A DNA stretch of 36,313 nucleotides from a virus (IMGVR_UViG_3300010883_000154:1-36313); one strand, 5' to 3'; shown: positions 528 through 28,487, counted from the first letter of the stretch. Notes: generated by a model from the letters alone, not told the origin. Translations and numbers: made by a program.

Positions 528-1214
528 ATGGTTGATGTAAGTCGTATATATAACTATAACCCCAACAATATTGCTCCTGAGCTTTTACAAGCAACACAAG
601 ACTACGTTCTTGTTCCCGAAGAGAATTTTATGCCGACTGATGAAGTAAAGGCATCTGTCATGGAGTTAGTTGAGGAACCAGCCCCAGATATTATTAGCTT
701 TCCTTTCTTAACCCCAGAATATTGTGCCCAGCTTGTAGAGTTATGCGAAGGGATCGGGAAGTTCGATCATCGTCCTGGTGATGCATACCCTGCCCCAGAG
801 ATGGACCTAAAAGATATTTCTCCTTATGTGAACACAACACACATACAGAACATCGAGAAGCACATTCTACCCATCGCATGCAGTCGATGGAGTTTTCCCT
901 TAGTTTGGTTATCATCAGCGTTTGTGGTTAAGCACAGCATGGATGGTCAGATTGGCAATCCTGGATGGCATCACGATGGCTTGGCAGATATCTCACTGTC
1001 AGTCCAACTAAATGATGACTTCGACCATGGCGGAGTTTACTTCGAAAACCAGAAATTTGGTGCTGGTCAATTACCTGTTGGTCATGCCATATTATTTCCT
1101 TCGCGTGTCACTCACAGACACACAGCTCTGAATATCACAAGAGGCAAGAGGTATTCGCTCACATACTGGATGAAAGGTGATATTCCAGATGATCTATCTG
1201 CTAGAACTACCTAA
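528..1214 (+). CDS. 2-oxoglutarate/Fe(II)-dependent oxygenase (prolyl-4-hydroxylase-like)
   Basis: This 228-residue protein has the double-stranded beta-helix signature of the 2OG-Fe(II) dioxygenases. H148 and D150 (WHHDG) form the HxD motif. A distal histidine follows at H198, with R208 ten residues later to bind 2-oxoglutarate (THRHTALNITRGKRYS). The strand GGVYFE at 168-173 is typical of the prolyl-4-hydroxylase subfamily. The target could be protein or modified DNA; the sequence does not decide. The gene is alone on the plus strand and its base composition looks visibly more GC-rich than its neighbours, which hints at separate acquisition. No Shine-Dalgarno precedes the ATG at 528. An internal ATG at 627 is an alternative start but would remove conserved-looking N-terminal sequence. 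Confidence 0.88.
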   Translation: MVDVSRIYNYNPNNIAPELLQATQDYVLVPEENFMPTDEVKASVMELVEEPAPDIISFPFLTPEYCAQLVELCEGIGKFDHRPGDAYPAPEMDLKDISPYVNTTHIQNIEKHILPIACSRWSFPLVWLSSAFVVKHSMDGQIGNPGWHHDGLADISLSVQLNDDFDHGGVYFENQKFGAGQLPVGHAILFPSRVTHRHTALNITRGKRYSLTYWMKGDIPDDLSARTT

Positions 1215-2082: not shown

Positions 2083-2478
2083 TTAATTTTCTACTCTTTT
2101 TCTAAGCTCACTCGACGAAAAGTTATGCCCTCGCTTATTAAAGTAACAAGAGTCAAGAGTATCTTCCCTTCCAGTAAATGGAGCCTCCCTGTACTCTTCT
2201 CCTATGATGCGAACATCCCAATGTAAACCTTTTAGGATATTCATCACGTCTTCTTCGGATTCGTAAACAATTACATCATCAACATGCACACAGGCTTTAA
2301 CTTGTATCTGTCTTTCGACAATAGTTTGTATTGGTTTATTTTTATCTGGTCTGTCAAAATTTGGGTCTCTCTGGATGCACACAGTTAAATGGTCACAAAC
2401 AGTTTTACCTTCTTCTAACATCAGGACATGTCCAGTGTGAAATAAATCGAATGTTCCGAAAGTAATTCCTTTTTTCAT
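2083..2478 (-). CDS. Cytidylyltransferase-fold nucleotidyltransferase (TagD/glycerol-3-phosphate cytidylyltransferase-like)
   Basis: This 131-residue protein belongs to the HxGH nucleotidyltransferase superfamily. It opens with the nucleotide-binding strand-loop GITFGTFDLFHTGH, which contains the HTGH motif, and ends with NFSSSELRKRV, the position of the second phosphate-binding motif (ISSTxIR-like). The length matches TagD-type enzymes, which make CDP-activated small alcohols from CTP. The real substrate is unknown. In a phage it could activate a group for DNA or surface decoration. An ATG at 2493 is in frame, but the one at 2478 has GAGAGAGG just upstream and leads straight into the conserved strand, so I chose it. 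Confidence 0.85.
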   Translation of the reverse strand: MKKGITFGTFDLFHTGHVLMLEEGKTVCDHLTVCIQRDPNFDRPDKNKPIQTIVERQIQVKACVHVDDVIVYESEEDVMNILKGLHWDVRIIGEEYREAPFTGREDTLDSCYFNKRGHNFSSSELRKRVEN

Positions 2479-2539
2479 TTCCTCTCTCTCCATAATCTAT
2501 CTTTTGTTCTCTGAAAAGACCATTCTAAGAATCTGTTCA

Positions 2540-4884: not shown

Positions 4885-6764
4885 CAATTGCTCCAATATT
4901 TTGTGTGGTCGACAGTAGCAGTACCCCAAGTCTTACCTATCTCGGCATCTACTTTGGAAGGGACATCTAAGTCAACACAAGTTTCCATAATTTCAACAAT
5001 CTTTCTGCTTTCTTCTTTATTTTTAACAGATATGTCTAATTCGTCATGTACTTGAATATGTGGAACGATTCCTTCATTCCATAAATCCAACATAGCTTGT
5101 TTTGTCATATCTGCTGCACTGCCTTGTATCAACCTATTGAATGCTCTATAGGTGTATGCTCGGCGAATGTTTCCTCCATATTGATCGTACGCTTGTTCAT
5201 ACGGCAATGGTAGTTCTTTCTCGTTTCTTGGTTCATACATATCAAAACGACATTTTCTATCTAACAACGTTGTGATATATCCGACATTCTCTGCTTTTCT
5301 AGAGCAAGCTAATGTTAATTCTTTAATAAAGGGAACTTTAGAATGATAGTTATTAAACAACGCATCAGCCTCAAGTTCGTTAATACCTAATGCATTTATC
5401 AACTTAGCTTTGCCCATACCATAACTCAAAGATAAGTTTATTACTTTAGCATCCTTCCTCGATATACCTGCCATATCTGCGACTATTTGATGGAAGTCAG
5501 CATCATCATGTCGATAAGCAGAAACTGCTTCTTCTGCCCCAGCGAGATTCATTCTAGATGCATAATGAACAGTCAGTCTAGGTTCTTGTTGTGAGTAATC
5601 GAAAGCACCCCAGCTGTAGCCCTCTTCTGGTAAGAATAAACCACGAACCAATGGACCAAGTATAGGGTCACGAGCAGGAACTTGTTGTAGATTAGGTGTG
5701 CTATAACTAAACCTTCCACTAACAGTACCCCCAGAGTCTCCTCGTAGAGGATGCATTTGTCCATGTATCCTACCATTATGCGAATGTTTTAGTATCATAT
5801 TTTCTATAAAAGCACTGCGAATCTTTTGGTATTTTCTTGCTTGTACAATTAGTTTAGGTAATCCGTGGTTCAAACTTTCTAGCCATTGTCCAGTAAAACT
5901 AGGTGCGTTTGTTTTCTTAGTTCTAGGATATGTCAGTCCTGCTTTATCAAATGCTTTTGCTACACTTTGAGATGCCCATACATCTACATCGGCACCATAT
6001 TTATATTTTATTTGTTTAATACATTCCTGTTCTTGTTTTTTAAGTTCATCTACAGACTGCTCAGCTTTGTTTACATCAACACGTACACCTCGCCATCTCA
6101 TCTCTATTAACAAAGGAATTAAGTTAGATTCTAACTCATATATAGATTGTAGGTTCTCTTTTTCTAGCTGTTTACTTAATTTATCCCATAATTTTAGCGT
6201 CAACACGGCATCTTGTTCGGCATACTCCCCTACATATTTCGCAGGAAGCCTCCACATTTCTGACTTAGGGTCTACATCGTAAGATTGTGCTGCTTCTCTA
6301 AGCAAAGTTTCATCTTTAATGTCCCCACAATAATCTGCACCTAGAATATTTAAAGAATATCTTCTTCTGTTTTCGTTTACTAAAGGAGCAGCAATAACTG
6401 TGTCGTGTATTTTACCATTAAGTTGTATGTCTTCTCGTTTCAACCAACCCACATCGTACAAAGCATTATGGAATATTTTATCACAACGACTAGACAAAGT
6501 CTTATTTAACCAACGTTTCACTAAACCTGTGTCTAAATTACCACCACCTTCATGTCGGATAGGTAAATATCCACTCCATTTGTCGGTAGCTATAGCGAAT
6601 CCTGTAACATAACCATCTCCAGTCGCCCATCCTGGACCAGATGTAGTTAAATTAGGGTCTTTTGTCTCTAAATCTATGGCTATACGTTTAGCTGAAGATA
6701 AATCAGGTAATGTATCAGGAGCAACCCAATCTGATTTAGGAGGGAACATGGGATTCTGCCTCAT
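4884..6764 (-). CDS. polA: DNA polymerase I family A with 3'-5' exonuclease, Leu762 type
   Basis: This 626-residue replicative polymerase has an N-terminal DnaQ-like proofreading domain. Its exonuclease motifs are D31/E33 (AIDLETKD), N100/D104 (HNALYD) and Y181/D185 (YAEQD). The polymerase domain follows with motif A at D389 (AFDYSQQEPR), motif B R436-K440-L444-Y448 and motif C H573-D574-E575 (VHDEL). There is no 5'-3' exonuclease domain, as expected for phage replication enzymes. The residue equivalent to E. coli Phe762 is Leu444, a variant common in marine virioplankton. The ATG at 6764 overlaps the upstream stop (ATGA) and has GGAG eight bases upstream. Confidence 0.96.
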   Translation of the reverse strand: MRQNPMFPPKSDWVAPDTLPDLSSAKRIAIDLETKDPNLTTSGPGWATGDGYVTGFAIATDKWSGYLPIRHEGGGNLDTGLVKRWLNKTLSSRCDKIFHNALYDVGWLKREDIQLNGKIHDTVIAAPLVNENRRRYSLNILGADYCGDIKDETLLREAAQSYDVDPKSEMWRLPAKYVGEYAEQDAVLTLKLWDKLSKQLEKENLQSIYELESNLIPLLIEMRWRGVRVDVNKAEQSVDELKKQEQECIKQIKYKYGADVDVWASQSVAKAFDKAGLTYPRTKKTNAPSFTGQWLESLNHGLPKLIVQARKYQKIRSAFIENMILKHSHNGRIHGQMHPLRGDSGGTVSGRFSYSTPNLQQVPARDPILGPLVRGLFLPEEGYSWGAFDYSQQEPRLTVHYASRMNLAGAEEAVSAYRHDDADFHQIVADMAGISRKDAKVINLSLSYGMGKAKLINALGINELEADALFNNYHSKVPFIKELTLACSRKAENVGYITTLLDRKCRFDMYEPRNEKELPLPYEQAYDQYGGNIRRAYTYRAFNRLIQGSAADMTKQAMLDLWNEGIVPHIQVHDELDISVKNKEESRKIVEIMETCVDLDVPSKVDAEIGKTWGTATVDHTKYWSN

Positions 6765-7279
6765 TCTGTTGCTCCATAAGACTTAACTAAATGTGCAAGG
6801 AGTGCTTTGCCTTTATCATTTAATTGCATGTCAACTAATTTTTCCACACCATTACTAAATACAACATTAACGTTAGTATTACCTAGACTTCTTTGGTTTA
6901 CACAATACAGTAAAAGCTCAAATAAATCAGATTGTTTAAAAAACTCTCTTTCCTCTGGGCTGACATCATAGTCTACACCGAGTTCTTTTTCTATACCTTT
7001 CTCCACTATAGACAATTCTTTAGCTAATTCTGGGTTATTCCATTTAGTTGGTGCTGGCATGTCTCCTGTTCTTTTTTCTGCTACATCGTGGGTCAATGCT
7101 TTTAGCAATGCAATTTTACTAATGTCTGGTTTTAACCAATTAAGTATAGTCGCTACACCCCAAGAATGCTCTGCAACAGTTTGCTCGCCTATAGTTTTCA
7201 TAGTGTGGTAACGTTTCACCTCACCTCCACTTAACACATTTAATATATTCACAACATTTTTAGATCGATCTGTATTCAT
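6761..7279 (-). CDS. HD-domain phosphohydrolase (YfbR-like 5'-deoxynucleotidase)
   Basis: This 172-residue protein has the HD metal site: H38 in TVAEHSW and H64-D65 in ALTHDVAEKRTGDMPAP. The RYHTMKTIGEQTVAEHS segment matches the YfbR-type deoxynucleoside monophosphatases, which remove phosphate from dNMPs. In a phage that probably alters thymidine nucleotides, it could trim unwanted dNMP or shape the nucleotide pool. I chose the ATG at 7279; a GTG one codon earlier is also possible. It overlaps the end of the nuclease gene upstream. Confidence 0.88.
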   Translation of the reverse strand: MNTDRSKNVVNILNVLSGGEVKRYHTMKTIGEQTVAEHSWGVATILNWLKPDISKIALLKALTHDVAEKRTGDMPAPTKWNNPELAKELSIVEKGIEKELGVDYDVSPEEREFFKQSDLFELLLYCVNQRSLGNTNVNVVFSNGVEKLVDMQLNDKGKALLAHLVKSYGATE

Positions 7280-7946
7280 CACATAATCCTATTTTGCCAA
7301 AATGACACCAGCGACAGTTTTCTACACTTGCTTTTGCTGGGTAATCTATAGCTTCAGTTAGTTTTAACGCTCTTTCGTGGAACGTTGCTTGTCTTTCTCT
7401 TAGTTCGTCAGCAGTATATGAATGTCTAGATATTTTACCATGGTCTAGATACCAAAGTTCTGCCTGAACCACTTCTATACTAGGGTCTCTATTAAAGGTT
7501 GCTACTGCATATAAAGCACATTGCTGTTCGTGGGTCTTCTCGTTACCCATATATCTACCTGTTTTAAAGTCTATGACTACTGTGCGATCGGGTTTTTTAA
7601 TATAAGCGTCTATTTTATATCTGCACCAAGTCTTAAGTTCGTTCCATTGAGCAGGTTGCCACTTAATATCAAATGCCCAATCCTCCTCGACAGAAACATT
7701 ACCATCACAATAACCTTCCTTTAGATTCTCAAAACCTTCTTCGAACATTCTTAAACCTTTAGTCATTTTGCCTTCTCCTTTAATGAACATCTCTGCCTCA
7801 TTATGGATATCAGTTCCTCTAGTTGCAGCAGGATGCTGTGGTGTAGGAATTTTTTCTATACTAGCATAATAATATCTTTTAGGACATTGCTCAAATACAG
7901 AAAGTCTGCTGTATGACCAAGTTTTATGCGTGGCACGGTCCGACAT
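7260..7946 (-). CDS. RecB/Cas4-like PD-(D/E)xK exonuclease with Fe-S cysteines
   Basis: This 228-residue protein opens with the RecB-family box WSYSRLSVFEQCPKRYYY (C21). It has a nuclease core with TRGTDIHNEAE and VVIDFKTGRY (Asp and Lys of the active site) and QQCALYA. It ends with CRWCHFGKIGLC, giving three more cysteines. The four cysteines fit the 4Fe-4S cluster of Cas4/AddB-like nucleases. The likely role is 5'-3' or end-directed DNA degradation or recombination. The ATG at 7946 has a strong GGAGG and overlaps the end of the ThyA-like gene by 23 bases. The frame extends to 7970 but with weaker support. Confidence 0.9.
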   Translation of the reverse strand: MSDRATHKTWSYSRLSVFEQCPKRYYYASIEKIPTPQHPAATRGTDIHNEAEMFIKGEGKMTKGLRMFEEGFENLKEGYCDGNVSVEEDWAFDIKWQPAQWNELKTWCRYKIDAYIKKPDRTVVIDFKTGRYMGNEKTHEQQCALYAVATFNRDPSIEVVQAELWYLDHGKISRHSYTADELRERQATFHERALKLTEAIDYPAKASVENCRWCHFGKIGLCDEYRSI

Positions 7947-8994
7947 CTTTCTCCTCCACTTCTTCGTCAACTAGGTTGACGTTTAATCTTCTCTCTAACC
8001 ACTCTGTACAGGCAAGAGTCCAATCCTCTGCTTTACAATTTGAACGCAGCATGTTTATAGCACCTTTAGTATTACCTTTTTCTCTATGTAATTCCCATGC
8101 GAACTGCATAGGAGCAACAACATCAAGGAAAAAACCATGTTTAAAATGTGGGTTGGTCGATGTAAAGAAATTATTTAGATCTTCCTCAAACAGCTCACAA
8201 AAGTTAGTGTCTTCTTGATCGCTAGGCATCATAGGGTAAGTAGAGACTGTGTCGTATGGACTTTTCGTCATAGGATACTTCATGGCATAGTAATCTACTT
8301 CTGGTAACCTAGATTCCATTTCTTTAAATAGATCTTTGTACACATGGTAACTATCACTAATTTGATTATAAACACCTACATCAACTCCGATTCTACCAGC
8401 CATGTATTCCTGCAACATAGACATATGAACTGCGTTAGCACCATATGCTCCCCAAATCATATCGTTAGATCTGCAACATACAGTCATGTTAAGTTTGTTA
8501 TCTCTTATCTTAAAATATATGTGTGTATTACAAGGTGTATCTAATGTATCTTTATCTAAATCATTATCACAATCCCACATAGACAAAACACATCTCCTAT
8601 CTGTATGATCGTTTTTTAGCCTCTTAGCTATAGTGTCTAATTGGTCTTTCTTAAAAAAGTTTCTCCATCTGTAGCCATAAGCACCATTAAAAGTTACACC
8701 ATTGTCGCTAAAAGAAGACATACGTTTGTTATATTCTGTGACAAAATGTACATCGTCTCTACCAGCTAACATCCATAAACCTTCCATAAAATGAAAAAAT
8801 GGGTTAGCATCTCGTGGTTCCCAGAAAACAACACGTTCACAAGGGTTTTTAAAAGTAGTTATCACTGGTCCAGGGTATTCAAGAGTCACCCCTGCCCTAC
8901 TATCTTGTTCTATGATAGCTGGATCCCACCTAAAAGTGTCTATTCCTAGTATGAATGCCTCATGTACATTCGTGCAATTTATAATCTTCGCCAT
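7924..8994 (-). CDS. ThyA-like enzyme: thymidylate synthase or dUMP hydroxymethylase
   Basis: This 356-residue member of the thymidylate synthase/dCMP-hydroxymethylase family keeps the key residues in the right spacing. They are R133-R134, nucleophile C155 (DTPCNTHIYF), R175-S176 and D178, N187 (GAYGANAVH) and H217/Y219 (SYHVY). Asn at 187, rather than the Asp of dCMP hydroxymethylases, points to a uracil base. The product is therefore dTMP or 5-hydroxymethyl-dUMP. The latter is favoured by the 5-hmdU kinase-family gene at 11365-12201, but that is inference. It is longer than E. coli ThyA (264 residues). A GGAGG site precedes the ATG. Confidence 0.88.
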   Translation of the reverse strand: MAKIINCTNVHEAFILGIDTFRWDPAIIEQDSRAGVTLEYPGPVITTFKNPCERVVFWEPRDANPFFHFMEGLWMLAGRDDVHFVTEYNKRMSSFSDNGVTFNGAYGYRWRNFFKKDQLDTIAKRLKNDHTDRRCVLSMWDCDNDLDKDTLDTPCNTHIYFKIRDNKLNMTVCCRSNDMIWGAYGANAVHMSMLQEYMAGRIGVDVGVYNQISDSYHVYKDLFKEMESRLPEVDYYAMKYPMTKSPYDTVSTYPMMPSDQEDTNFCELFEEDLNNFFTSTNPHFKHGFFLDVVAPMQFAWELHREKGNTKGAINMLRSNCKAEDWTLACTEWLERRLNVNLVDEEVEEKDVGPCHA

Positions 8995-9009
8995 ATCTAT
9001 AACCTCCAG

Positions 9010-10347
9010 TTATAATTCAGTTGGTAATTTAAAGAAATTAGACATAATCTCTTTGGTTTTATTTTTTATTTTTTCGCTAACAGTCCCTACTTCCAGTTTA
9101 TTATAAAATCCTGTAGGTATACCTAATGCTAAAGATACATATTGTTGAGCAACTCTTTCTCTTTCAAAATTAGTTAAAAGTTGTCTATTGTTATTGTGTA
9201 TATCTTCAGCTAAATAGTCAGCTAAAAAACAAGTCTCTTCTATTTTATCGGCAAACTCAAGAGGCGTGGCGTCATGAGGAACCATTATATAGTTTTCATA
9301 AGGTTTAAATACTTCACCCAAACCTTCCGCATTAGTAGAGATACCATAATTTCTAGCGATTGGTATTGCTCCCTCTATTATACCATCTACGACTACACGA
9401 TTAAAGTGATCACCAACTTTAGCGTAAGCAACAGACCAAGATGGATCTATAACTACTTTTGTTTCTCTAAGTAATTTTCTTATATTATTCTGTGATAGAT
9501 ATCCTAACCATTCCATTCCATGGTCTAGGGCGACATCCCATATTTTCTGTCCATGGTGTATTTCGTCTATATCAGGATCCCTGTCTGGGGACACAAAATA
9601 CTGTGGTTTACACTTATCGACAGAAGTCATGTAGTTTTGTTCTATACCACCACCAGCCATAAGTTTTTTTATATTAGGAGATAGATGTGGGATTGCCCTA
9701 ACTAAGTCATCAACATGTTTCCAACCTTTAAATGTCTGCATAGATATAAAACTGTTCCTCCTTTGCTTCCAATCATTATTCCTCGTTAACGAAGACAGGT
9801 CTTGTGGGTTAAATATCAATGCTCTTGGGACATCTAATACTGCAGCACCATGGTAAGCACACGGATGAACACACGCAAGACCACTTAAATGGTGGGATAT
9901 TTGGTGAATCCAAGGGTAACTTTTTTCCATATTTCCGTCGTGAACTATAGCTACTTGCTTTATCCTTTCTGGTAAATCGTAAAGAGCCAACCAATCTGTG
10001 TTACCCTCATTATCCCTTTGTTTTGTAGGAACAGGAATCTGCCATATAATTATATCGTAGTCTTCTGCAAATCTTTTCCAACGCTTTATATTCCAATCAC
10101 CCTTATATGCAAACCTATTTATCCTAGGAAACAACCAGCCTTTACCTTGATGAACAGGGATACCAGACGCACCTAGTTCATACTCTGTGTCGTCTTTAGT
10201 TGTTTTTCCTTTTATTTCTTCTCGCCAACTAAGTTCAACGAAATTTACTTCGTGACCTTGTTGTTTTAACCCAGCTATAAGTTGTTCGTTATGGTTAATT
10301 ATTCCTCCAGGACTATTTATACCATACATTGTTATCAATACCTTCAT
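9010..10347 (-). CDS. Glycosyltransferase, GT-B type (group 1/GT4-like)
   Basis: This 445-residue protein begins with MKVLITMYGINSPGGIINHN, the N-terminal strand and Gly-rich loop of GT-B glycosyltransferases. The second Rossmann half contains FISMQTFKGWKHVDDLVRAI and a region (GDHFNRVVVDGIIEGAIPIA) at the place of the sugar-nucleotide binding EX7E motif. The acceptor is unknown. It sits in the probable DNA-modification block, next to the ThyA-like enzyme and upstream of FkbM and 5-hmdU-type genes, so a hydroxymethyl base in DNA is a plausible acceptor. A cell-surface glycan is the alternative. GGAGAG precedes the start. Confidence 0.82.
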   Translation of the reverse strand: MKVLITMYGINSPGGIINHNEQLIAGLKQQGHEVNFVELSWREEIKGKTTKDDTEYELGASGIPVHQGKGWLFPRINRFAYKGDWNIKRWKRFAEDYDIIIWQIPVPTKQRDNEGNTDWLALYDLPERIKQVAIVHDGNMEKSYPWIHQISHHLSGLACVHPCAYHGAAVLDVPRALIFNPQDLSSLTRNNDWKQRRNSFISMQTFKGWKHVDDLVRAIPHLSPNIKKLMAGGGIEQNYMTSVDKCKPQYFVSPDRDPDIDEIHHGQKIWDVALDHGMEWLGYLSQNNIRKLLRETKVVIDPSWSVAYAKVGDHFNRVVVDGIIEGAIPIARNYGISTNAEGLGEVFKPYENYIMVPHDATPLEFADKIEETCFLADYLAEDIHNNNRQLLTNFERERVAQQYVSLALGIPTGFYNKLEVGTVSEKIKNKTKEIMSNFFKLPTEL

Positions 10348-10348
10348 T

Positions 10349-10660
10349 TTAACTCTCCTTTCTATTTGTAATTGACGTCACATGCTCTTCTACTAGTAGT
10401 AAGTACCTACGCAGATCTTGGATATCGTCTAAAATACCCTCTTTTCTATCATCGTCGAAGTATGCATCAAACACGTCATAGTTATAACCTAAAACCTGAT
10501 TCTCTATTCTATCCCACTTTCTCGCTAACATCATAAAAGCACCAACTCCACCTCTTCTTTTCCAAGAATCTCCGTAAGATTTACCAGCTTCTTCTAGTTT
10601 AGTTACATCTGTTTGTGCTATACCACGCATTTTTTCATAAGGTGTAAACATATTACTCAT
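10349..10660 (-). CDS. Conserved small phage protein (nucleotide-modification-associated-like)
   Basis: This is a 103-residue protein with the segments GKSYGDSWKRRGGVGAFMML, RKWDRIENQV and DIQDLRRYLLLVEEH. The pattern is familiar from many phages and resembles the DUF1599/Nmad1 type named for its association with nucleotide modification genes, but I am not certain of the family. It overlaps the FkbM gene by four bases (ATGA) and has GGAG upstream. Its place inside the modification block supports a role there. Confidence 0.65.
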   Translation of the reverse strand: MSNMFTPYEKMRGIAQTDVTKLEEAGKSYGDSWKRRGGVGAFMMLARKWDRIENQVLGYNYDVFDAYFDDDRKEGILDDIQDLRRYLLLVEEHVTSITNRKES

Positions 10661-11352
10661 AGTCCTAACTCCTTTAATTTATCTTTCACTAAGCCTAACC
10701 CTTCTTTCTTTCTATGTAGAACTAAAGTGGTTATATGCCAACTAAACCTAAATTTATTGTGGTAATGCCAATCATTAAATAGTTTAGCTACATCTACACC
10801 AAGTTCTCTGTAACCTTTTTTACCTAGATGGAGTTCTATCGCTATCTGCTCAACATAATCAGGCATATCTTCTTGAAACATAAAGTCATACTCACCACCT
10901 TCTACATCTACTTTTAATACTTGTGGTTTATGTTCTTTAACCTTTTTCCAAAAGTTAGCTGCATCTACAGTAAGTTTTTGCCTTCCTTTAACAGGCATGT
11001 GTGTATGGCAAGTAGGGTAGGACTTAGATAAATAAAAATCTACAGTTGGTTTGTCGTCTCCTGTTAAGGCTGAGTTGTATAAACTAGTTTTGTCATTATT
11101 AACGTTCATAACCATTAAAGCGTAACTCTCTGGTGTAGGTTCATATGTCCACACATGTTTTGCACCATGTTTAAGTGCGAAAGCTGTGAAACAACCTATA
11201 TGCCCACCAACATCCATAACTGTTTTACCTTCAAAATCTAATTTAGAGTATTGGGGCTGTTCGTGTATTACAAATAACTCACCTAATTCTGGTCTATAGA
11301 ATAGTCCTGACTCCTCGTCTAATTTTATTTCTGCGTTTTGCTCATCAATCAT
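10657..11352 (-). CDS. FkbM-family SAM-dependent methyltransferase
   Basis: This is a 231-residue Rossmann methyltransferase. Motif I is VMDVGGHIGCFTAFALKHG, followed by the acidic strand end WTYEPTPESYALM. Later, VLKVDVEGGEYDFM has the FkbM-type DVEGxE signature. FkbM enzymes usually O-methylate sugars or small hydroxyl groups. With a glycosyltransferase two genes away, methylation of an added sugar or hydroxymethyl group is a reasonable guess. AAAGGAG precedes the ATG. Confidence 0.85.
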   Translation of the reverse strand: MIDEQNAEIKLDEESGLFYRPELGELFVIHEQPQYSKLDFEGKTVMDVGGHIGCFTAFALKHGAKHVWTYEPTPESYALMVMNVNNDKTSLYNSALTGDDKPTVDFYLSKSYPTCHTHMPVKGRQKLTVDAANFWKKVKEHKPQVLKVDVEGGEYDFMFQEDMPDYVEQIAIELHLGKKGYRELGVDVAKLFNDWHYHNKFRFSWHITTLVLHRKKEGLGLVKDKLKELGL

Positions 11353-11364
11353 AATTACTCCTTT

Positions 11365-12201
11365 TTATTTATTATTTTTATAAAGAGATCTTGGTTTACC
11401 TTGACCAAGCCTCACACGTTCGTATTTATCAAACTCACATAAAGAATGCTCTATGTCTCTCATCTCTAAATCTGGGACTTGTCCGTGTAGGAAATCCTCG
11501 CTTATTTTTAACAATTCCTGCATCTCTACAATATTCTGTGGACTTCTAACATGTTTATCTACAGGTCTGTCATAGATTCTGTTAAGTCCTCGTTTTGCTC
11601 CTGGACCAGGATTAGCCCACGTCCATATATCTTCAGCTTCGTCACCTAACCAAGTATGTCTCCAGTCCGTAACTACTTCATAAGCCATAAATGGACCCAT
11701 GTATGGGTAGGGAAGCAAAACTTCCCAAAGTTTTTCTAAAGAATGTTTAGCTTCGTGTATATCATTCATAAACTTATTATGGTTGTTCATTATCTGGTCT
11801 ATACAATGGCAGACTCCTGCTAATTTATTCATACCATTAGGTGTCTTAATAATATACGCACCTGTAATCCATTGTGGCTGGTCTTTTAGAACTTCGTAAC
11901 AAAGTTTACTGTCCCAGTATCTATGGAGATGGTTTTCTATTAAAACTTCACCTGTAGCGATTAAATTAAACCATCTGAATATAATGGTTGCTAAAACTAC
12001 ATCCTGTTCGTCGCGTAAAGGTTCACGAATGTTTTTCTTAAACCATTGCGTAGTCTTGTCGTTCTCCCTAAAAACATTAGTAAATTTATATTTTTGTAGT
12101 ATAGGATCTTCTGTCCAAGGAAACTCTTGGCCACGTAATCTGCGTAAATGTATTAAGTGTCTTTCGTTTATAAAATCGAAAAAGTTAGTGTGATTTATCA
12201 T
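11365..12201 (-). CDS. 5-hmdU DNA kinase helical-domain protein (alpha-glutamyl/putrescinyl-thymine family)
   Basis: This is a 278-residue helical protein. The opening FFDFINERHLIHLRRLRGQE, then FPWTEDPILQKYKFTNVFREND, and later GPFMAYEVVTDWRHT and NPGPGAKRGLNRIYDRP match the family once called alpha-glutamyl/putrescinyl thymine pyrophosphorylase, now described as the helical domain of 5-hydroxymethyl-dU DNA kinases. Such proteins act on 5-hydroxymethyluracil in DNA on the way to hypermodified thymines. No P-loop kinase domain is fused here. It is the strongest sign that this phage alters its thymidines. AAAGGAAAA precedes the ATG, which overlaps the upstream gene. Confidence 0.82.
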   Translation of the reverse strand: MINHTNFFDFINERHLIHLRRLRGQEFPWTEDPILQKYKFTNVFRENDKTTQWFKKNIREPLRDEQDVVLATIIFRWFNLIATGEVLIENHLHRYWDSKLCYEVLKDQPQWITGAYIIKTPNGMNKLAGVCHCIDQIMNNHNKFMNDIHEAKHSLEKLWEVLLPYPYMGPFMAYEVVTDWRHTWLGDEAEDIWTWANPGPGAKRGLNRIYDRPVDKHVRSPQNIVEMQELLKISEDFLHGQVPDLEMRDIEHSLCEFDKYERVRLGQGKPRSLYKNNK

Positions 12202-12682
12202 GTTTTCCTTTTGTTTTTGTAAAATATACTTCTAATTCTTTTTTCTTATTGTTAGCTTCTATAGCATATGAGCCGTACGTGGTCTCGTGGTTCTCGTTGT
12301 AAGATTTTACGAACTGCTCTAAACCGTCGATCACTACTTTTTGTTCGTAATCCCCTCTGGCTTCCATATTTAAATCATGGTTGGTTTCAGCTATAGCTAA
12401 TATGTTTTGGTCTACACTGTAGTCCCCAAGTACTGCGTGACCTTGACCAAAGACCATTACTTCTTCTTTTTTAATGGAGCTTTTAGTTGCTCGTCCTCGT
12501 GGACCACCTACCCAATTTAAATCTTTATAAACGTCTTTGTAATCCTCCATAGTTGCTATTTGGCTACATTTTTTACTACAGTATTTCCTTTGGGTACCAG
12601 TTAATACATTGCTACATATAGTACAGTTTTTATTATTATCTTTAGTAGTCATCACATTAATCATATCGTAAGTCCTATACAT
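12185..12682 (-). CDS. Zinc-ribbon protein of unknown function
   Basis: This protein is up to 165 residues long. An N-terminal zinc ribbon, CTICSNVLTGTQRKYCSKKC, is followed by a mixed region without known motifs. The sequence favours DNA or RNA binding, or an accessory role to the modification enzymes that follow. The start is uncertain. The open frame begins at 12682, but the promoter at 12660-12688 covers the first codons, so the ATG at 12652, only about eight bases past the -10, may be the real (leaderless) start. No Shine-Dalgarno is seen at either ATG. Confidence 0.7.
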   Translation of the reverse strand: MYRTYDMINVMTTKDNNKNCTICSNVLTGTQRKYCSKKCSQIATMEDYKDVYKDLNWVGGPRGRATKSSIKKEEVMVFGQGHAVLGDYSVDQNILAIAETNHDLNMEARGDYEQKVVIDGLEQFVKSYNENHETTYGSYAIEANNKKKELEVYFTKTKGKHDKSH

Positions 12683-18521: not shown

Positions 18522-18681
18522 GTATATTTATATATTACTTACATGAGCAGTTATTTTTGTAATCATGATGGACTAAAAGTTATCAAAAAGCTAATAACCT
18601 AATACGATAGCAAGCAAACACAGTAGTTCAAAGGGATGGAGACATATTACTTCTCCCTATTAGTGCACTATTGGTTAGTCC

Positions 18682-18710
18682 TTTACTATTCTAAGGACAT
18701 AGGTTATCAT
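18682..18710 (+). promoter_or_regulatory. Promoter of the phage-wide type, plus strand
   Basis: TCCTTTACT with TTTACT (18682-18687), a 17-base spacer and TATCAT (18705-18710) lie 33 bases before the plus-strand gene at 18744. TCCTT...AAGGA around the -35 forms a short inverted repeat like those seen in other copies. Its position shows that the frame extending back to 18636 is not the real start. Confidence 0.75.
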
Positions 18711-18743
18711 TTCAGTAAGTTACTAAAAAGAAAGGAGAAACTT

Positions 18744-19235
18744 ATGAATATATTTTACGTTTACGAAGACCCAGCCGACGCTGCAATATGCTTACCTGAC
18801 AAGCTTGTAGTTAAAATGCCTTTAGAATCAGCTCAAATGTTATGTACAGCCCATCGTGTACATAATGGTGACGATTGGTGTGATTTTAACGGTATCTATA
18901 AAACTGCTCACCTAAATCACCCATGTACTATATGGGCGAGGGAAACTACTAAAAACTACATGTGGTTGTATTACCATTTTTATGCCTTGTCTAAAGAATA
19001 CGAAGCTAGATACGGTAGACAACATCTTAGTTTCATTAAACTTAATAAGGTGTTATCTAATCCTCCTACTGGTGTCCCCGAAGGTGAGTTGACTACTATG
19101 CCTCAGGCTATGCCTATACAGTATAAAAATACAGATCCTGTAAAAGCCTATCGTGATTACGTGGTGAACGAAAAGACTTATGCTAAGTGGAATAAATTAC
19201 CTGATAGGCAACCTACTTGGTGGGCGATAGCGTGA
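18744..19235 (+). CDS. Conserved phage protein, unknown function
   Basis: This is a 163-residue protein with a pattern that I recognise from T4-like and marine phages: LVVKMPLESAQMLCTAHRV, HLNHPCTIWARETTKNYMWL, EYEARYGRQHLSF and a Trp-rich end (PTWWAIA). The family has no function that I can name with confidence. Conserved His, Asn and Trp residues suggest an enzyme. The ATG at 18744 follows AAAGGAG and the promoter at 18682-18710. It overlaps the helicase start by four bases (GTGA), so both are one operon. Confidence 0.78.
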   Translation: MNIFYVYEDPADAAICLPDKLVVKMPLESAQMLCTAHRVHNGDDWCDFNGIYKTAHLNHPCTIWARETTKNYMWLYYHFYALSKEYEARYGRQHLSFIKLNKVLSNPPTGVPEGELTTMPQAMPIQYKNTDPVKAYRDYVVNEKTYAKWNKLPDRQPTWWAIA

Positions 19236-22502: not shown

Positions 22503-22654
22503 TATTTTCCTGCTTTAACCATTGCTGTTTTATGGGACTGTGAAAAAGTTTTACCTTTTCTCATTTCACTACGCATAATGGACATGTGTTCTTTAGTGTG
22601 GTGTTTCTCGTGTTTCTTCATAGTTTCTTTTTGTTTTTTAGTTAATTCTGTCAT
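22502..22654 (-). CDS. 50-residue conserved basic phage protein
   Basis: A short frame, MTELTKKQKETMKKHEKHHT followed by KEHMSIMRSEMRKGKTFSQS and HKTAMVKAGK, starts at the ATG at 22654 and stops at 22502. I recognise this type as a common tiny His/Lys/Met-rich protein in the structural regions of phages; its function is unknown. Both ends overlap neighbours (ATGA upstream, TAATG downstream). Confidence 0.75.
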   Translation of the reverse strand: MTELTKKQKETMKKHEKHHTKEHMSIMRSEMRKGKTFSQSHKTAMVKAGK

Positions 22655-23583
22655 CTTCTGTTACCTCTAAGTAGATCTCTAACATCAAAACTTTCTATAC
22701 CAGAACGCGATCCAGGTAGTTGTTCAAAACTTGGTGGTGCCATTGGAGGTGCCATCATCATTGGTGGTTCTTCAAATCTTGGTGGAGGAGGCATCATGAT
22801 TGGCTCTTCAAAACCTGGAGGAAACATAGGTGGTGCAAACGGTGGATCAAACGGTGGTCTGAACGGTGGATCAAACGGTGGTTCAATTGGTGGATCAAAC
22901 GGTGGTCTGAACGGTGGATCAAACGGTGGTGTGATCGGTGGATCAAACGGTGGTCTGAACGGTGGTTTGGGTTCATACGGTGGTGTGATCGGTGGATCAT
23001 ACGGTGGTCTGAACGGTGGATCATACGGTGGATCAAACGGTGGTCTGAACGGTGGATCAAACGGTGGTGTGTACGGTGGTCTAGGTTCATACGGTGGGTC
23101 AATTGGTGGATCAAACGGTGGTTTGTATGGTGGTTTGTATGGTGGGTCATACGGTGGATCATACGGTGGATCATACGGTGGATCATCAGGTGGTGGATCA
23201 TCAGGTGGATCATCAGGTGGTGGATCATCAGGTGGATCATCATCAGGTGGTGTCATACCTAGTAAACTTGCAAAAGAATTTGCTTGTTGATTTGCTAAAT
23301 CCTGGGCACTAAGTGCAGTTTGTGAGTTTCTGTAATTTTGTTGACGTGCTTGTTCTTGTAAATTTGTAGGAGGTTCATAAGTATTAACTAAAGACTCTAT
23401 TCCTGCAGGTTGTTTAGGAGGAATTACTCCTGGTACTTTTGGATTAAATGGAGGATGTCTATACCCATCATCCGAGATGATAGTATAATTATCTCCTGCT
23501 CCACCACCAGTGAATTGATTTTGAGTTATGTTGGTGCCATAATTTATTCTACCATTCTTTAATGCTTTTCGTAAAAAACTCAT
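22651..23583 (-). CDS. Proline-rich repeat virion protein
   Basis: This 310-residue protein has an ordinary N-terminal part (to about residue 110). A long low-complexity region of PP-D/E/F/Y units (DPPFRPPFDPPYDPP-like), about 150 residues, follows, and then a Met/Pro-rich tail (MMPPPPRFEEPPMMMAPPMA). Such a stretch would form an extended polyproline rod or flexible linker. It is likely to be a virion or tail-associated protein by position between a large internal protein gene and two small conserved ones. I do not recognise the family. The start at 23583 overlaps the upstream gene (ATGA). Confidence 0.78.
   Translation of the reverse strand: MSFLRKALKNGRINYGTNITQNQFTGGGAGDNYTIISDDGYRHPPFNPKVPGVIPPKQPAGIESLVNTYEPPTNLQEQARQQNYRNSQTALSAQDLANQQANSFASLLGMTPPDDDPPDDPPPDDPPDDPPPDDPPYDPPYDPPYDPPYKPPYKPPFDPPIDPPYEPRPPYTPPFDPPFRPPFDPPYDPPFRPPYDPPITPPYEPKPPFRPPFDPPITPPFDPPFRPPFDPPIEPPFDPPFRPPFDPPFAPPMFPPGFEEPIMMPPPPRFEEPPMMMAPPMAPPSFEQLPGSRSGIESFDVRDLLRGNRR
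22830..23250 (-). repeat. Tandem short DNA repeat coding for Pro-Pro units
   Basis: About 420 bases are built from degenerate 9-12 base units. On the plus strand they read GGTGGATCAAACGGTGGT, GGTGGTCTGAAC, GGTGGATCATAC and GGTGGATCATCA. They encode the Asp/Phe/Tyr/Arg-Pro-Pro units. Because the units are multiples of three without stop codons, long open frames appear in several other frames on both strands; these are repeat artefacts, not genes. Confidence 0.92.
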
Positions 23584-26537
23584 TCTTCATTTTCCTCTTC
23601 AGTGTTCATATAATTATATACGCCATTTGATAGTTTCAGAAGCATTTCTTTTTTATGTTCTGGTCGTATAGCTACCTCGTTCTCCATAAGTGTTATCACA
23701 TCTGTACCTAAATTAGTTACAGCAAAACCGACAGCTCGTTTACTAGGGTTCTCAATTATTGTTGTTAAGTATTTAAGAGTTGTTGGGTTAGATAATACTC
23801 CCCCAAGAATTTTTAACTGTGCTAATTTACCAAGATTGTCTAATGGATGTAAACCTATGTTAGCTGCAGCAAAACCACCAGCTTCTTGTCCTGCTTTTGA
23901 AGTTAAGAAAGAGGCTTTCTGGGCAAATTTTTCCATAGCTTGTGTAGTTTCAGCACCAAAAACAGCATTTAATTTTGACACCTGCCCTTCTTTTTTTAAG
24001 AATTTAACTAAATTTTCACCATTTAAAAATGCTGCAACTGGGCTTTCTTTTTGTGTAACGAACATAGAATCAAGAACATTTTGCATATAAGTTTGTTTAA
24101 ATCCTATGAACTCATCAGACTCTTTACCATAATAATTCATGAAGTCAACGATATCTGTGGTCTTAGCTCTGTTTATAAGCCAAGGAACGACTTCCTCAGG
24201 AGAATATTTTTCTATGGCTTTGTTAAAATTATTGTCTAAAAAATCAAAACGTTTATTAGTTGCATCAACGTATACCTTAACCTCTTTCGTAAACATTCCA
24301 GGTTTACCTTCGTCTAATGCACTCGTTAATGATTTAGTTATCCTAATCATGTCTTCTTTAGGTACATACTTTATAGCAGAACTAAGTTGCTCTAGAGAAG
24401 ATTTAATGATAGGTGCTGAATCACCATACAATGCAGGATACGATGTACCCATTTGTTTTATCTGCGATAAAACTCGACTGACAGAGAAATTACCATCTAC
24501 GTCTGTAGCATTTACTAGCATAGAATCATAATGCCCTGCTTGTAACATTTTACGTGTGGCTTCAGGGTCATCTGTAGCATTTATTACGTCTTTTATTCTT
24601 TTAGGGGAGTTTCTTGTTACAATTGTTTGTATAATTAAACCTGGTTCAACACCGTCTTTTTTAGTTAAACTTTTCACCAGTCTATTGTCAAATAAATCTA
24701 TACCCTCTGCATAAGTTTTTTTAGCATTTTTTAATAAGTCTAACCCAGTGTTTATATTTTCTAATTCTTTGGGGTCAGTTATTTTTTTAGTGCCAAGAAC
24801 TGTGTTACCACTGGCATCAACATACCTAAAACCTTTTACACCATTGTTAAGAGCTACATCAAACGCTTCGTTTGCACCTTCTTTTAACAAATTGAATTTT
24901 ACAATATCAAAACCTTTAAGCATATCTGGATCAAAAGCACTTTGTGAGAATAAAGTTCTATATCTAGCCATTTGTCCAGCAGATATATAGTCAGTAGTGT
25001 TAAGTATGTCTTGAAGCATTTTAACTGTATCGTCGTTGAATCCAGCAGATACTTTACCGTCAGCAGTTTTAGGTAAACCTTCTAACAGATCAGCAGCTAC
25101 TTTTTTTATTGGTTGTGTAGGTATTATCGCCCGACCTTTTAACAGTTGATCGGCTTCATCGTAAAGTGTGTTAGTTGTTGCTCTAAAATTATCAAAAGCA
25201 TCAGTAACATTTTTTACAACAACTTCACCTACTTCCGAGGGAGCTTTACCAGAAACATCAGCAGTTTTAGTACTCTCCTCCTTTATTGCATTTTTAAGTA
25301 TCTGTAGTGCAGAATTAGCACTTTCTTCTGTAACAGTAGCAGCAGCATTTCTTTTGGCTTGTATTAATGCACCTAATTGTTCTTCGTTTAGTTTAGGGAA
25401 AACATTATTCATGAAAGGTTCGAAAGTTTCTAACCCTTCGTCAGATAAGAATCCATTAATTCTGTCTGACATGTACTTAACATTTTTAGTATTCTTAAGA
25501 GTGTTGTAACCCAAAACTTCTTCTATAAGACCAGCAGTTCGACCTAATACCTTTCTATTAGTTGCTTTGTAAACATCAGGTATTGCACCTTCATCTAGTA
25601 ATTCTCTAACCAAATCATATGTTTGTCTTTGTCCTGGACCAGAAGCTGCATCTACTTTAGGTTGGTAAGTGTATGTTTTAAAATTAAAAACACCTGTGTT
25701 ACCTGTAGGTACACGAACTTCACCAGGAGAAAATAAATATTTACCAGTTCCTAATAGAAGTCTGCCTCCAGCTTCCCCACCAGCACCTATTGCTGCTTCA
25801 AAAGCAACGTCTTTACCTACTTCACCTAACGATTGCTCTTGTGATGCAGGGAAACCTAATAGATCTAAACCAGTTTCAAACCCTTCTTCTAATGCCTTAG
25901 CACTACCTGTAGCAGCTCCACTAGCCATCATAGCAGCACCTGTACCATAGTTTCTTGTAGCTATACTGGCTGCGATTGCAGAAACTATCTCAGGAGCAGA
26001 ACCAGCTAAATCTGAAATATCTTCTCTCTCAAATCCATCAGGGTTGTCTATTATTAAAGGTTTATCACCTGGAGTAGCACCTAATGCTTCTCTATACTCT
26101 GGCATAATAGCGTATCTACCATACTTATCCATCACCCACCCTTCGCCTTTGCCTGCACCAAGAGTTTTAGTCATGAAGTTTTCTTTTTCTTCACCAGTAT
26201 CCATGAACCCTAATTTTCTTCTAAAGGATTTATTCTTTAATCCTGTGTATTCAAAACGATCGTCTTTCATTCCAGACATTATTTCTTTTACAGTTGCCGC
26301 AGCAGCAGAACCCTCCATAGGAAAATCATACATACTCATGCCACCTGTTCCTGTTGTTGCAGGAGGATATTGTGTACGACTCTGATAACCAGTTGCTACG
26401 GAAGCCCTATCTTGACCAGTTAGTCTAGCTTCCATATCGATCAACTCATCGTTATCTAACTCTTGTAAAAAAGTTTGCTGACCTAACGCATTCATTTGAA
26501 GATAGTTAGCGTAGATTTCGTCAGTTATGTTTGACAT
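23580..26537 (-). CDS. Large probable internal/ejection virion protein
   Basis: This is a 985-residue protein, the largest here. It has an N-terminal acidic helical region. A small hydrophobic Ala/Gly-rich stretch (SAPEIVSAIAASIATRNYGT; GAAMMASGAATGSA) lies at about residues 181-215, and a long mostly helical remainder follows. It lacks known enzyme motifs. Size and place in a run of large structural genes resemble T7-like internal core proteins that are ejected with DNA, but this is inference. The ATG has AAAAGG about eight bases before it. The neighbours overlap or adjoin closely. Confidence 0.8.
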   Translation of the reverse strand: MSNITDEIYANYLQMNALGQQTFLQELDNDELIDMEARLTGQDRASVATGYQSRTQYPPATTGTGGMSMYDFPMEGSAAAATVKEIMSGMKDDRFEYTGLKNKSFRRKLGFMDTGEEKENFMTKTLGAGKGEGWVMDKYGRYAIMPEYREALGATPGDKPLIIDNPDGFEREDISDLAGSAPEIVSAIAASIATRNYGTGAAMMASGAATGSAKALEEGFETGLDLLGFPASQEQSLGEVGKDVAFEAAIGAGGEAGGRLLLGTGKYLFSPGEVRVPTGNTGVFNFKTYTYQPKVDAASGPGQRQTYDLVRELLDEGAIPDVYKATNRKVLGRTAGLIEEVLGYNTLKNTKNVKYMSDRINGFLSDEGLETFEPFMNNVFPKLNEEQLGALIQAKRNAAATVTEESANSALQILKNAIKEESTKTADVSGKAPSEVGEVVVKNVTDAFDNFRATTNTLYDEADQLLKGRAIIPTQPIKKVAADLLEGLPKTADGKVSAGFNDDTVKMLQDILNTTDYISAGQMARYRTLFSQSAFDPDMLKGFDIVKFNLLKEGANEAFDVALNNGVKGFRYVDASGNTVLGTKKITDPKELENINTGLDLLKNAKKTYAEGIDLFDNRLVKSLTKKDGVEPGLIIQTIVTRNSPKRIKDVINATDDPEATRKMLQAGHYDSMLVNATDVDGNFSVSRVLSQIKQMGTSYPALYGDSAPIIKSSLEQLSSAIKYVPKEDMIRITKSLTSALDEGKPGMFTKEVKVYVDATNKRFDFLDNNFNKAIEKYSPEEVVPWLINRAKTTDIVDFMNYYGKESDEFIGFKQTYMQNVLDSMFVTQKESPVAAFLNGENLVKFLKKEGQVSKLNAVFGAETTQAMEKFAQKASFLTSKAGQEAGGFAAANIGLHPLDNLGKLAQLKILGGVLSNPTTLKYLTTIIENPSKRAVGFAVTNLGTDVITLMENEVAIRPEHKKEMLLKLSNGVYNYMNTEEENEE

Positions 26538-28484
26538 TTATGAACCTTTTGATAATTCCATTAATCTAGCTATTCTTTCTTTGTTTTGTAAAGATTGATC
26601 TTCTGAAGACATAGTTGTGATCGGTTTATAGTTACCTTCTAATTGATTCATGATGACAGTTTCTGTTCTATCAATTACTTCCATTACTTCTTTATAACGT
26701 ATCAGAGCTTCTGCTTGAGTTTTATAACTGTCGCCTTTTATAAATTCTCTCACCATTTTTCTATCTGCTTCTGTGAATCTGTCTTCTTTTATAATTCCTT
26801 CTATTAAATCTATTTCAGCTACATTTAACAAAACTTTGGTTAACGTAAAGTCTTCTGGGATCTTAAACCCAGTAATATCAGAAAGTATTCTCGCTGCATT
26901 TGTATCTAAAAGTTCTCCCTTGATACCAACTACATTCGCAGGAGCATTAGTTAAAATACCCCCAACAAGTTCCATCTTGTTTCGTAAAGATTTATTTGCT
27001 AAGTAACGTGTAGCCAGTTCAGCTGGTGCTGTGGGAAGTAGATTAACAGGTATTCGAGCAAGTTCAGCTATCTTTGGATCATTAAGATCTAAACCTATTT
27101 GAGTAGCAAACTGTTTAGGAGTAACATTAACAAAAGGCTGTCTTTCCTTTAGTGTATCTAATGCACCTGTTTTAGTAATCTGGGTGTCTGATGTAGCTTT
27201 GTATAAACCAGCATAGGTGTTTAATTGATCAATTTTAGTGTCTAAGTCCGCAGTTTTTAATTTCTCTATATAATCACTTTTAATCATATTAGTGATATTG
27301 TTCATCATTGTACCTGAGCTGTCGCTTCCGAACACACTATCACCACCGATAAGACCATTGTCTGTTTTTTTAACTAATAAAGAAAAATCGTAACCAGAAT
27401 TTTTAAATTCTTCTACACTAGCAGCAGTATGGTCTTCTAATAGTCCTGTTAATTCTGATAAATCATTTTCTCCTTTTCCAGGTTTTCTTACTAAAAGACT
27501 AGAGTCTTGTCTACCACCTTTTTCGTAGTCAGCTACACTAGCAGGAGTAAAGAGTTTTAAATACTCAATCACTTTAGTATCTTTATCACCTTTTTCTTTT
27601 AAACGTATGAGGTCACTATATTGTCCTGACTCTGCATATTTACCAACAGAAGCAACAGTAAATTTATCCAATAGATCTTCTTTATTAGTTTCTTCATCCA
27701 CTAATTTTAAATCACCTACTTTACCAGATTCTTGGAATGTTTTTAACGAATCAGTGGTTACTTTACCCACTAAAGCTAACAAGTCATTTGTTTTTATTTC
27801 ACGAGAGGCGTATAGATCGAGTGCTTTTTTCCTAATATCCTGATCTAATTTAGCTTTGTCTGCTTTAGCTTTCTCACCTTTATTAAACATGTATGTAGCA
27901 GTTTTACCTTTGGCTTGTAGATAGGCTTGTTTCCAATCCCCAGGTTCATTCATCATAAATGTTCCAAAGACAGAAGCAGGTAATGCCCACTCAGGAATAC
28001 TTTCACTGTTATCACTTTCTGTGTACATAGAACGTACAAATTCCTCAACAGCTGGTATACCACCTTCATCAATCATGTCAGATATAGAACGATAAGCATC
28101 TTGTTTTTCTTCTGTAGTCCCAGAAGCGTTGTCTAAACCTAATGCAGCCACAGCTCGTATTCCGTCTTCTTCTTCCCCAGCTCCAGCATTAGTTAAAACA
28201 GACATTACTTCTTCTTCTGCAGCTAGTTTAACCTCAGGAGTTAGGTTATTGGTTTCTTCCATAAATAGTTGTGGGTCCACAAGACTTCTGATATCTAAAT
28301 CTAAACTTGGTAAAGAACCAGCTTCTGCAAACTGGACATCTTCGTAAGTAGGAGTCATCATTTGGTTGATGGATGTTCCAGCTGGTGGTGTTCCTGGGAC
28401 AGGAGGTCTTCCTTGAGGAAGACTGTTATTCATTCTATCGTATTCATCTAATGCTTGTTGCATCATGTTTGGATCTATTGCCAT
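26538..28484 (-). CDS. Probable virion protein, unknown function
   Basis: This is a 648-residue protein rich in Lys/Asp/Glu helices. It has internal degenerate repeats of a segment like VGKVTTDSLKTFQESGKVGD, KFTVASVGKYAESGQYSD and LFTPASVADYEKGGRQDS at about residues 235-340; each has a [AT]SV-x-(E/K)(Y/F)-x-x-[SG]G core. I do not know the family. It abuts the 985-residue gene and is likely to be in the same particle component. Confidence 0.78.
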   Translation of the reverse strand: MAIDPNMMQQALDEYDRMNNSLPQGRPPVPGTPPAGTSINQMMTPTYEDVQFAEAGSLPSLDLDIRSLVDPQLFMEETNNLTPEVKLAAEEEVMSVLTNAGAGEEEDGIRAVAALGLDNASGTTEEKQDAYRSISDMIDEGGIPAVEEFVRSMYTESDNSESIPEWALPASVFGTFMMNEPGDWKQAYLQAKGKTATYMFNKGEKAKADKAKLDQDIRKKALDLYASREIKTNDLLALVGKVTTDSLKTFQESGKVGDLKLVDEETNKEDLLDKFTVASVGKYAESGQYSDLIRLKEKGDKDTKVIEYLKLFTPASVADYEKGGRQDSSLLVRKPGKGENDLSELTGLLEDHTAASVEEFKNSGYDFSLLVKKTDNGLIGGDSVFGSDSSGTMMNNITNMIKSDYIEKLKTADLDTKIDQLNTYAGLYKATSDTQITKTGALDTLKERQPFVNVTPKQFATQIGLDLNDPKIAELARIPVNLLPTAPAELATRYLANKSLRNKMELVGGILTNAPANVVGIKGELLDTNAARILSDITGFKIPEDFTLTKVLLNVAEIDLIEGIIKEDRFTEADRKMVREFIKGDSYKTQAEALIRYKEVMEVIDRTETVIMNQLEGNYKPITTMSSEDQSLQNKERIARLMELSKGS

Positions 28485-28487
28485 AAT

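Follow-up and report, generated by a model that had tools for sequence, protein, structure and literature searches.

Phage M6 carries 5-NedU in its DNA, which is made via 5-hydroxymethyl-deoxyuridine (5-hmdU) and a 5-hmdU DNA kinase (PMC6449724). For pelagiphages of the HTVC023P type, an association of hydroxymethylase, HMUDK_hel protein and glucosyltransferase was noted in 2022, with the ThyA-family enzyme and aG/PT-PPlase1 as partner genes; FkbM is unmentioned in that paper (PMC9599517). The name used there for the transferase is that of TAGT (PF20691), a group that includes the T2/T6 enzyme adding a second glucose to glucosylated 5-hydroxymethylcytosine (5-hmC) DNA (PMC13216743). Here we describe a gene block of a marine phage, in an IMG/VR virus record of 36.3 kb (IMGVR_UViG_3300010883_000154, 36,313 nucleotides; this whole stretch is referred to as the window) that combines a ThyA-family hydroxymethylase (TS) and a stand-alone HMUDK_hel protein (HEL) with a GT-B glycosyltransferase (GT) and an FkbM-family methyltransferase. 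Taken as a whole, comparative evidence makes a glycosyl-type thymidine-hypermodification block the probable best explanation of this arrangement.

The window shares with M6 and PaMx11 (Mesyanzhinovviridae) a hydroxymethylase of about 43% identity, HEL (46% identical to PaMx11 gp50), an HD gene after TS and a nearby PolA. However, it lacks their kinase (PF18748) and their amino-acid:DNA transferase (ADDT, PF18724) and has GT, a small protein P3 and FkbM in their place. It differs from the HTVC023P-type system in having a separate GT-B family and FkbM instead of TAGT. With the TAGT and phage Tet_JBP systems it has in common a glycosyltransferase and a source of 5-hydroxymethyl pyrimidine, and relatives of the window GT even stand directly after Tet_JBP. 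Still, the GT does not match TAGT, and the hydroxymethyl group would come from a hydroxymethylase rather than a dioxygenase.

Results

Organisation of the block

Searches of Pfam, PHROGs and NCBIfam confirmed the family assignments. On the minus strand the genes follow each other almost without gaps in the order UvrD helicase, zinc-ribbon gene (ZnR), HEL, FkbM, P3, GT, TS, PD-(D/E)XK nuclease, HD nucleotidase and PolA. The central genes are:

7924–8994, minus strand: ThyA-family enzyme (TS), most likely a dUMP hydroxymethylase making 5-hmdUMP (PF00303, 4.6e-22; phrog_5131, 7.6e-114)
9010–10347, minus strand: GT-B glycosyltransferase (GT), proposed to glycosylate 5-hmdU DNA (PF00534, 1.6e-7; predicted fold; locus linkage)
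10349–10660, minus strand: P3, a small conserved protein with the motif RGGxGAFMMxARKxDR (conservation among relatives)
10657–11352, minus strand: FkbM-family methyltransferase, proposed to O-methylate the added sugar (PF05050, 1.2e-10; TIGR01444, 3.5e-16)
11365–12201, minus strand: HMUDK_hel protein (HEL), proposed recognition or transferase module for 5-hmdU in DNA (PF18723, 4.2e-52)
12185–12682, minus strand: zinc-ribbon-like protein (ZnR), fast evolving (no family above cut-off)

From upstream to downstream, UvrD and ZnR are 11 bp apart, ZnR and HEL overlap by 17 bp, HEL and FkbM are separated by 12 bp, FkbM and P3 overlap by 4 bp, and gaps of 1 bp and 15 bp lie between P3 and GT and between GT and TS. 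This 4.8 kb gene set is one tight operon. The original prediction had recognised the ThyA-family, GT-B, FkbM and HMUDK_hel proteins, and the matches listed above bear out all four at the coordinates given there. The identical order recurs in independent contigs, which places the gene set far beyond chance. A megablast search of the block against phage records gave zero matches.

The ThyA-like enzyme

The nearest phage relatives of TS are the enzymes of M6, PaMx11, MP1412 and Sonora (42–44% identity over 93–94%), and some of those in M6, PaMx11 and Sonora are annotated as deoxyuridylate hydroxymethyltransferase. Its best solved relative is a CMP 5-hydroxymethylase (2e-19), with ThyA behind (2e-12). 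As predicted, Asn187 aligns with Asn177 of E. coli ThyA (reference sequence entered by hand, consistent with the PDB alignment), a position where Asn is the uracil type. ThyA Trp80, which is important for the reduction step of true thymidylate synthases, is kept neither in the window TS nor in the aligned M6 and PaMx11 enzymes. The phrog_5131 match, the sequence identity and the common loss of Trp80 all place TS with the M6/PaMx11-type hydroxymethylases, and it is most likely a dUMP hydroxymethylase yielding 5-hmdUMP.

HEL and the missing kinase branch

The AlphaFold2 model of HEL (pLDDT 94.8) has as its closest solved fold the 5-PmdU glycinyltransferase of PaMx11 (8z2n; prob 0.99, E 0.15), followed by a queuine salvage enzyme and then an 8-oxoguanine glycosylase; all of these matches are weak by E-value, and they would suit a helical fold that handles bases. 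An alignment of 38 HEL proteins has 40 invariant columns irrespective of the partner genes, many of them charged or aromatic. A scan with the HEL of L066 brought zero new lineages.

The original prediction regarded GT plus FkbM with a stand-alone HEL, lacking a fused P-loop kinase, as a possible new route. The stand-alone HEL is not what is new, as HEL is also a separate gene in M6, PaMx11 and Sonora, where the P-loop kinase (PF18748-like, annotated as terminase small subunit or nucleotide kinase) and ADDT are separate neighbour genes. A stand-alone HEL as such is not unusual; the true oddity is that neither kinase nor ADDT is present. PF18748 alone was too weak a test, missing G017 and scoring PaMx11 under the cut-off, and therefore a profile of 18 kinases was built and searched against 37 records. 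It was positive in M6, PaMx11, G017 and G018 and detected no kinase in the other 33, including the window and its clade-mates of 61 and 62 kb. Neither PF18748 nor PF18724 was found in the window or in these clade-mates, and no other Walker A kinase was found in the window. The sequence evidence for the absence of the kinase is strong but not absolute, because the records carry no completeness estimate.

The glycosyltransferase family

GT has a confident GT-B fold in its AlphaFold2 model (pLDDT 91.9), and Foldseek returned 402 PDB matches at E ≤ 0.001, led by GT-B enzymes and with GT4 enzymes nearest by E-value. The T4 DNA alpha-glucosyltransferase is within the first 50 structural matches, its 1y8z entry being one with HMU-containing DNA. 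The two enzymes share the GT-B fold, whereas the T4 enzyme acts on 5-hmC and the window GT has no sequence match in phage records. The GT family matched nothing among 50,697 phage records, PHROGs or PDB sequences and thus has no characterised relative by sequence. PF00534 is the sole family above cut-off; TAGT (PF20691) does not match.

A search with GT alone returned 26 loci, not all of them independent. Ten lie in a HEL/TS block, namely eight contigs of the window clade together with L135 and L136, other phages in which a GT of about 41% identity stands immediately before HEL and TS. In T4-like phages, 14 follow a Tet_JBP dioxygenase directly or one gene on, also in records without a HEL match. 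As the remaining two are cut off upstream, all 24 readable loci adjoin HEL/TS or Tet_JBP, and none lies in an apparent glycan cluster. An additional relative (32%) is near HEL/TS in L146. We also observed, in the T4-like phage locus L123, a GmrSD_N protein (PF03235, below cut-off; 9495–10859) immediately after GT and next to Tet_JBP.

Exchangeable partners around a fixed core

Comparison of gene order in the fetched loci revealed a fixed core of HEL and TS with exchangeable neighbours. In some loci the partners are kinase and ADDT, accompanied by radical SAM/PLP or FAD/acetyltransferase genes; in others they are TAGT, a GT-B-like protein next to radical SAM and nucleotidyltransferase genes, or just a methyltransferase. 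The window clade has FkbM and GT. TAGT fills the same slot in other loci. The 83 non-redundant loci with HEL and hydroxymethylase comprise 27 with kinase/ADDT only, 41 with GT only (a class that includes the family-less c62 and c112, called GT-B-like by eye), two with both and 13 with neither. Kinase/ADDT and GT are therefore near-exclusive, occurring together in 2/70 loci. On well-supported branches of the HEL tree the GT label changes at least six times and the kinase label at least four times, from which it follows that partners were exchanged repeatedly.

Two further observations concern the relatives. In the L011–L043 group, a Methyltransf_23 protein immediately precedes HEL with no GT or kinase nearby (for example L042, 9144–9980), and 5-hmdU is possibly methylated directly there. 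Both the window (18636–19235, plus strand) and L054–L080 contain a gene resembling those of pyrimidine-dimer DNA glycosylases (PF03013), which in TAGT-type relatives stands immediately before HEL.

The closest relatives of the window PolA are those of 023Pt_psg01, HTVC023P, DSL-LC04 and HTVC027P (49–53% identity), which places the window phage near HTVC023P-type pelagiphages. HTVC023P, 023Pt_psg01 and DSL-LC04 share the primase–helicase–PolA backbone and miss the whole block, and their complete records contain nothing that matches HEL, FkbM or GT. The block thus behaves as a unit, and we consider it a real and probably functional variant of thymidine hypermodification.

FkbM, P3 and ZnR

FkbM scores above both curated cut-offs (PF05050, 42.3 vs 22.7 bits; TIGR01444, 60 vs 37.7 bits), and there is one FkbM per genome, located in the slot. 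The window protein is 75% identical to the L002 type. In L006, L007 and L009 the same slot holds an FkbM of 34–36% identity to that of the window, although the other shared genes are 65–86% identical; a different FkbM seems to have taken over the slot. The clade-mate L085 has the order HEL-P3-GT-TS with no FkbM between HEL and GT, and in two other loci FkbM also abuts HEL, next to TAGT in L167 and next to the kinase in L152. Refilling, absence and recurrence together support FkbM as a recurrent but optional final decoration. L085 (PAUP01000097.1) is binned in a Cytophagaceae-labelled genome and is likely a misbinned virus.

P3 had been likened to Nmad1/DUF1599. It does not belong there: PF07659 gave no match in the record even at E ≤ 10 and none in 22 relatives, and no Pfam, NCBIfam or PHROG family was matched. 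P3 matched 62 proteins near TS/PolA, both with and without the kinase, and has 28 invariant columns across the 22 relatives. Likewise, the promoter of its own that had been assigned to ZnR did not stand out from chance (20 promoter-like sites vs 25.3 ± 4.9 in shuffles), and the gene starts 11 bp past the UvrD stop. Clade-mates share 40–45% identity in ZnR, against 65–90% for most of their other genes.

Further genes of the window

7260–7970, minus strand: PD-(D/E)XK nuclease accompanying the block (PF12705, 1.5e-20; position kept in clade-mates)
6761–7282, minus strand: YfbR-like HD 5'-deoxynucleotidase, possibly for pool management (PF12917, 1.2e-16)
2083–2493, minus strand: HldE-II/TagD-like nucleotidyltransferase, tentative supplier of an activated sugar (TIGR02199, 1.5e-14; TIGR01518, 1.3e-12; both under curated cut-offs)

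The last of these may, tentatively, supply the donor sugar. No similar nucleotidyltransferase occurs in the flank examined of the clade-mate L009, so we keep this role as a lead only. A relative (E 2e-42) sits between Tet_JBP and GT in L125 (7116–7523) and L138 (6714–7121), both from T4-like phages. Elsewhere in the window, a PKHD-type 2OG-Fe(II) dioxygenase-like protein (528–1214, plus strand), which is not Tet_JBP, is conserved in clade-mates, and five large proteins of 310–985 aa without a Pfam match are encoded at 22651–31918 (minus strand), the one of 985 aa being unmatched in isolate phage records.

Discussion

We propose that the ThyA-like enzyme produces 5-hydroxymethyl-dUMP, which would enter the triphosphate pool and, on the precedent of M6, be put into DNA as 5-hmdU by the phage polymerase A, taking the place of part of the thymine. 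HEL, which distantly resembles a DNA-acting amino-acid transferase and DNA glycosylases, might then recognise or flip 5-hmdU in finished DNA. Judging from linkage and fold, the GT-B enzyme would use a nucleotide-sugar as donor to glycosylate the 5-hydroxymethyl group, and FkbM may O-methylate that sugar in an optional, exchangeable step. The GT branch would thus stand in for the kinase and ADDT branch of M6 and PaMx11 while the core of hydroxymethylase and HEL is retained, the likely purpose being protection against host nucleases. Incorporation of 5-hmdU followed by its glycosylation is quite probable in our judgement, while the chances that FkbM methylates the added sugar are evenly balanced. 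The original prediction of 5-hmdUMP that is made, incorporated, decorated with a sugar and perhaps methylated is well supported by comparative genomics, through the linkage of GT and the TAGT slot; FkbM is optional, as L085 illustrates.

Several lines argue for glycosylated 5-hmdU: hydroxymethylase and HEL are of the M6/PaMx11 types, kinase and ADDT are absent and near-exclusive with GT, in every readable locus the GT family accompanies enzymes that make or handle 5-hydroxymethyl pyrimidines, and the whole block is absent from the three pelagiphages with the same backbone. In addition, the same slot elsewhere is occupied by TAGT, whose T2/T6 member glycosylates DNA (PMC13216743). A number of points weigh against this interpretation. 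The solved GT-B structures nearest to GT by E-value are GT4 enzymes acting on small molecules or glycans, so the fold is no proof of a DNA acceptor. The usual substrates of FkbM proteins are glycans or lipids, and some clade-mates have no FkbM at the locus. In one large group of phages with HEL and TS, the surroundings of the block hold just another methyltransferase, with no GT and no kinase. The Fisher p of about 1e-9 for the kinase/GT exclusivity is inflated by relatedness, and the window and many of the compared records are fragments.

GT and FkbM could instead be a pair for surface glycans or virion glycosylation inside a nucleotide-metabolism operon, which would suit a GT4-like fold resembling cell-envelope and small-molecule enzymes and the general habits of FkbM. 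We regard this as rather unlikely given that every readable GT locus lies beside HEL/TS or Tet_JBP, that the DNA-acting TAGT occupies the same slot and that the single FkbM of each genome is located there. HEL adjoins a kinase in M6, PaMx11 and Sonora, and the two loci with both kinase and GT indicate that the branches can coexist; HEL might accordingly work with an unrecognised or host kinase towards a phosphorylated or amino-acid-type modification, with GT acting on minority residues or elsewhere. The negative profile results, including those for the 61 and 62 kb clade-mates, against positive controls, the additional absence of ADDT and the lack of another Walker A kinase in the window make this improbable.

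The invariant charged and aromatic columns of HEL and its closest solved fold, a glycinyltransferase, would also agree with HEL being the main enzyme on 5-hmdU and GT modifying its product. We give this possibility some room but consider it unlikely, since this GT family also neighbours Tet_JBP where the record has no HEL match and so seemingly does not need a HEL product. Finally, Asn187 and the ThyA fold would fit a plain thymidylate synthase in a fortuitous neighbourhood. However, this is highly improbable for an enzyme that is closest to the hydroxymethylases of hypermodified phages, has a CMP 5-hydroxymethylase as its best structural relative, misses Trp80 as in M6 and PaMx11 and recurrently partners with HEL. 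Glycosylation of 5-hmdU in DNA remains our preferred reading. A more far-reaching version of it, which we put forward tentatively and with considerable doubt, is that HEL serves as a general docking or base-flipping module for 5-hmdU with interchangeable effectors (kinase together with amino-acid transferase, a GT-B enzyme, TAGT or a methyltransferase), and that the window encodes an O-methylated-sugar thymine made through a GT family that Tet_JBP systems also have and isolated phage genomes lack.

Phages with glycosylated cytosine are well known. A hydroxymethylase-based route to glycosyl-thymine was not found described in the literature searched, except for the 2022 remark on pelagiphages. 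Beyond the literature, our analysis adds the GT-B family and its linkage both to Tet_JBP and to HEL/TS, the exclusivity of kinase and GT, the replacement of FkbM and the correction regarding the stand-alone HEL. If our proposal is true, the real role of HEL becomes testable, and its Pfam name as a helical domain of a kinase would be too narrow because the invariant residues of HEL are retained even in the absence of a kinase. The proposal would also name a family of DNA glycosyltransferases that sequenced isolates lack and that occurs in two kinds of hydroxymethyl-pyrimidine systems, and would suggest that oceanic phages vary the disguise of their DNA by swapping decorating enzymes around a fixed core.

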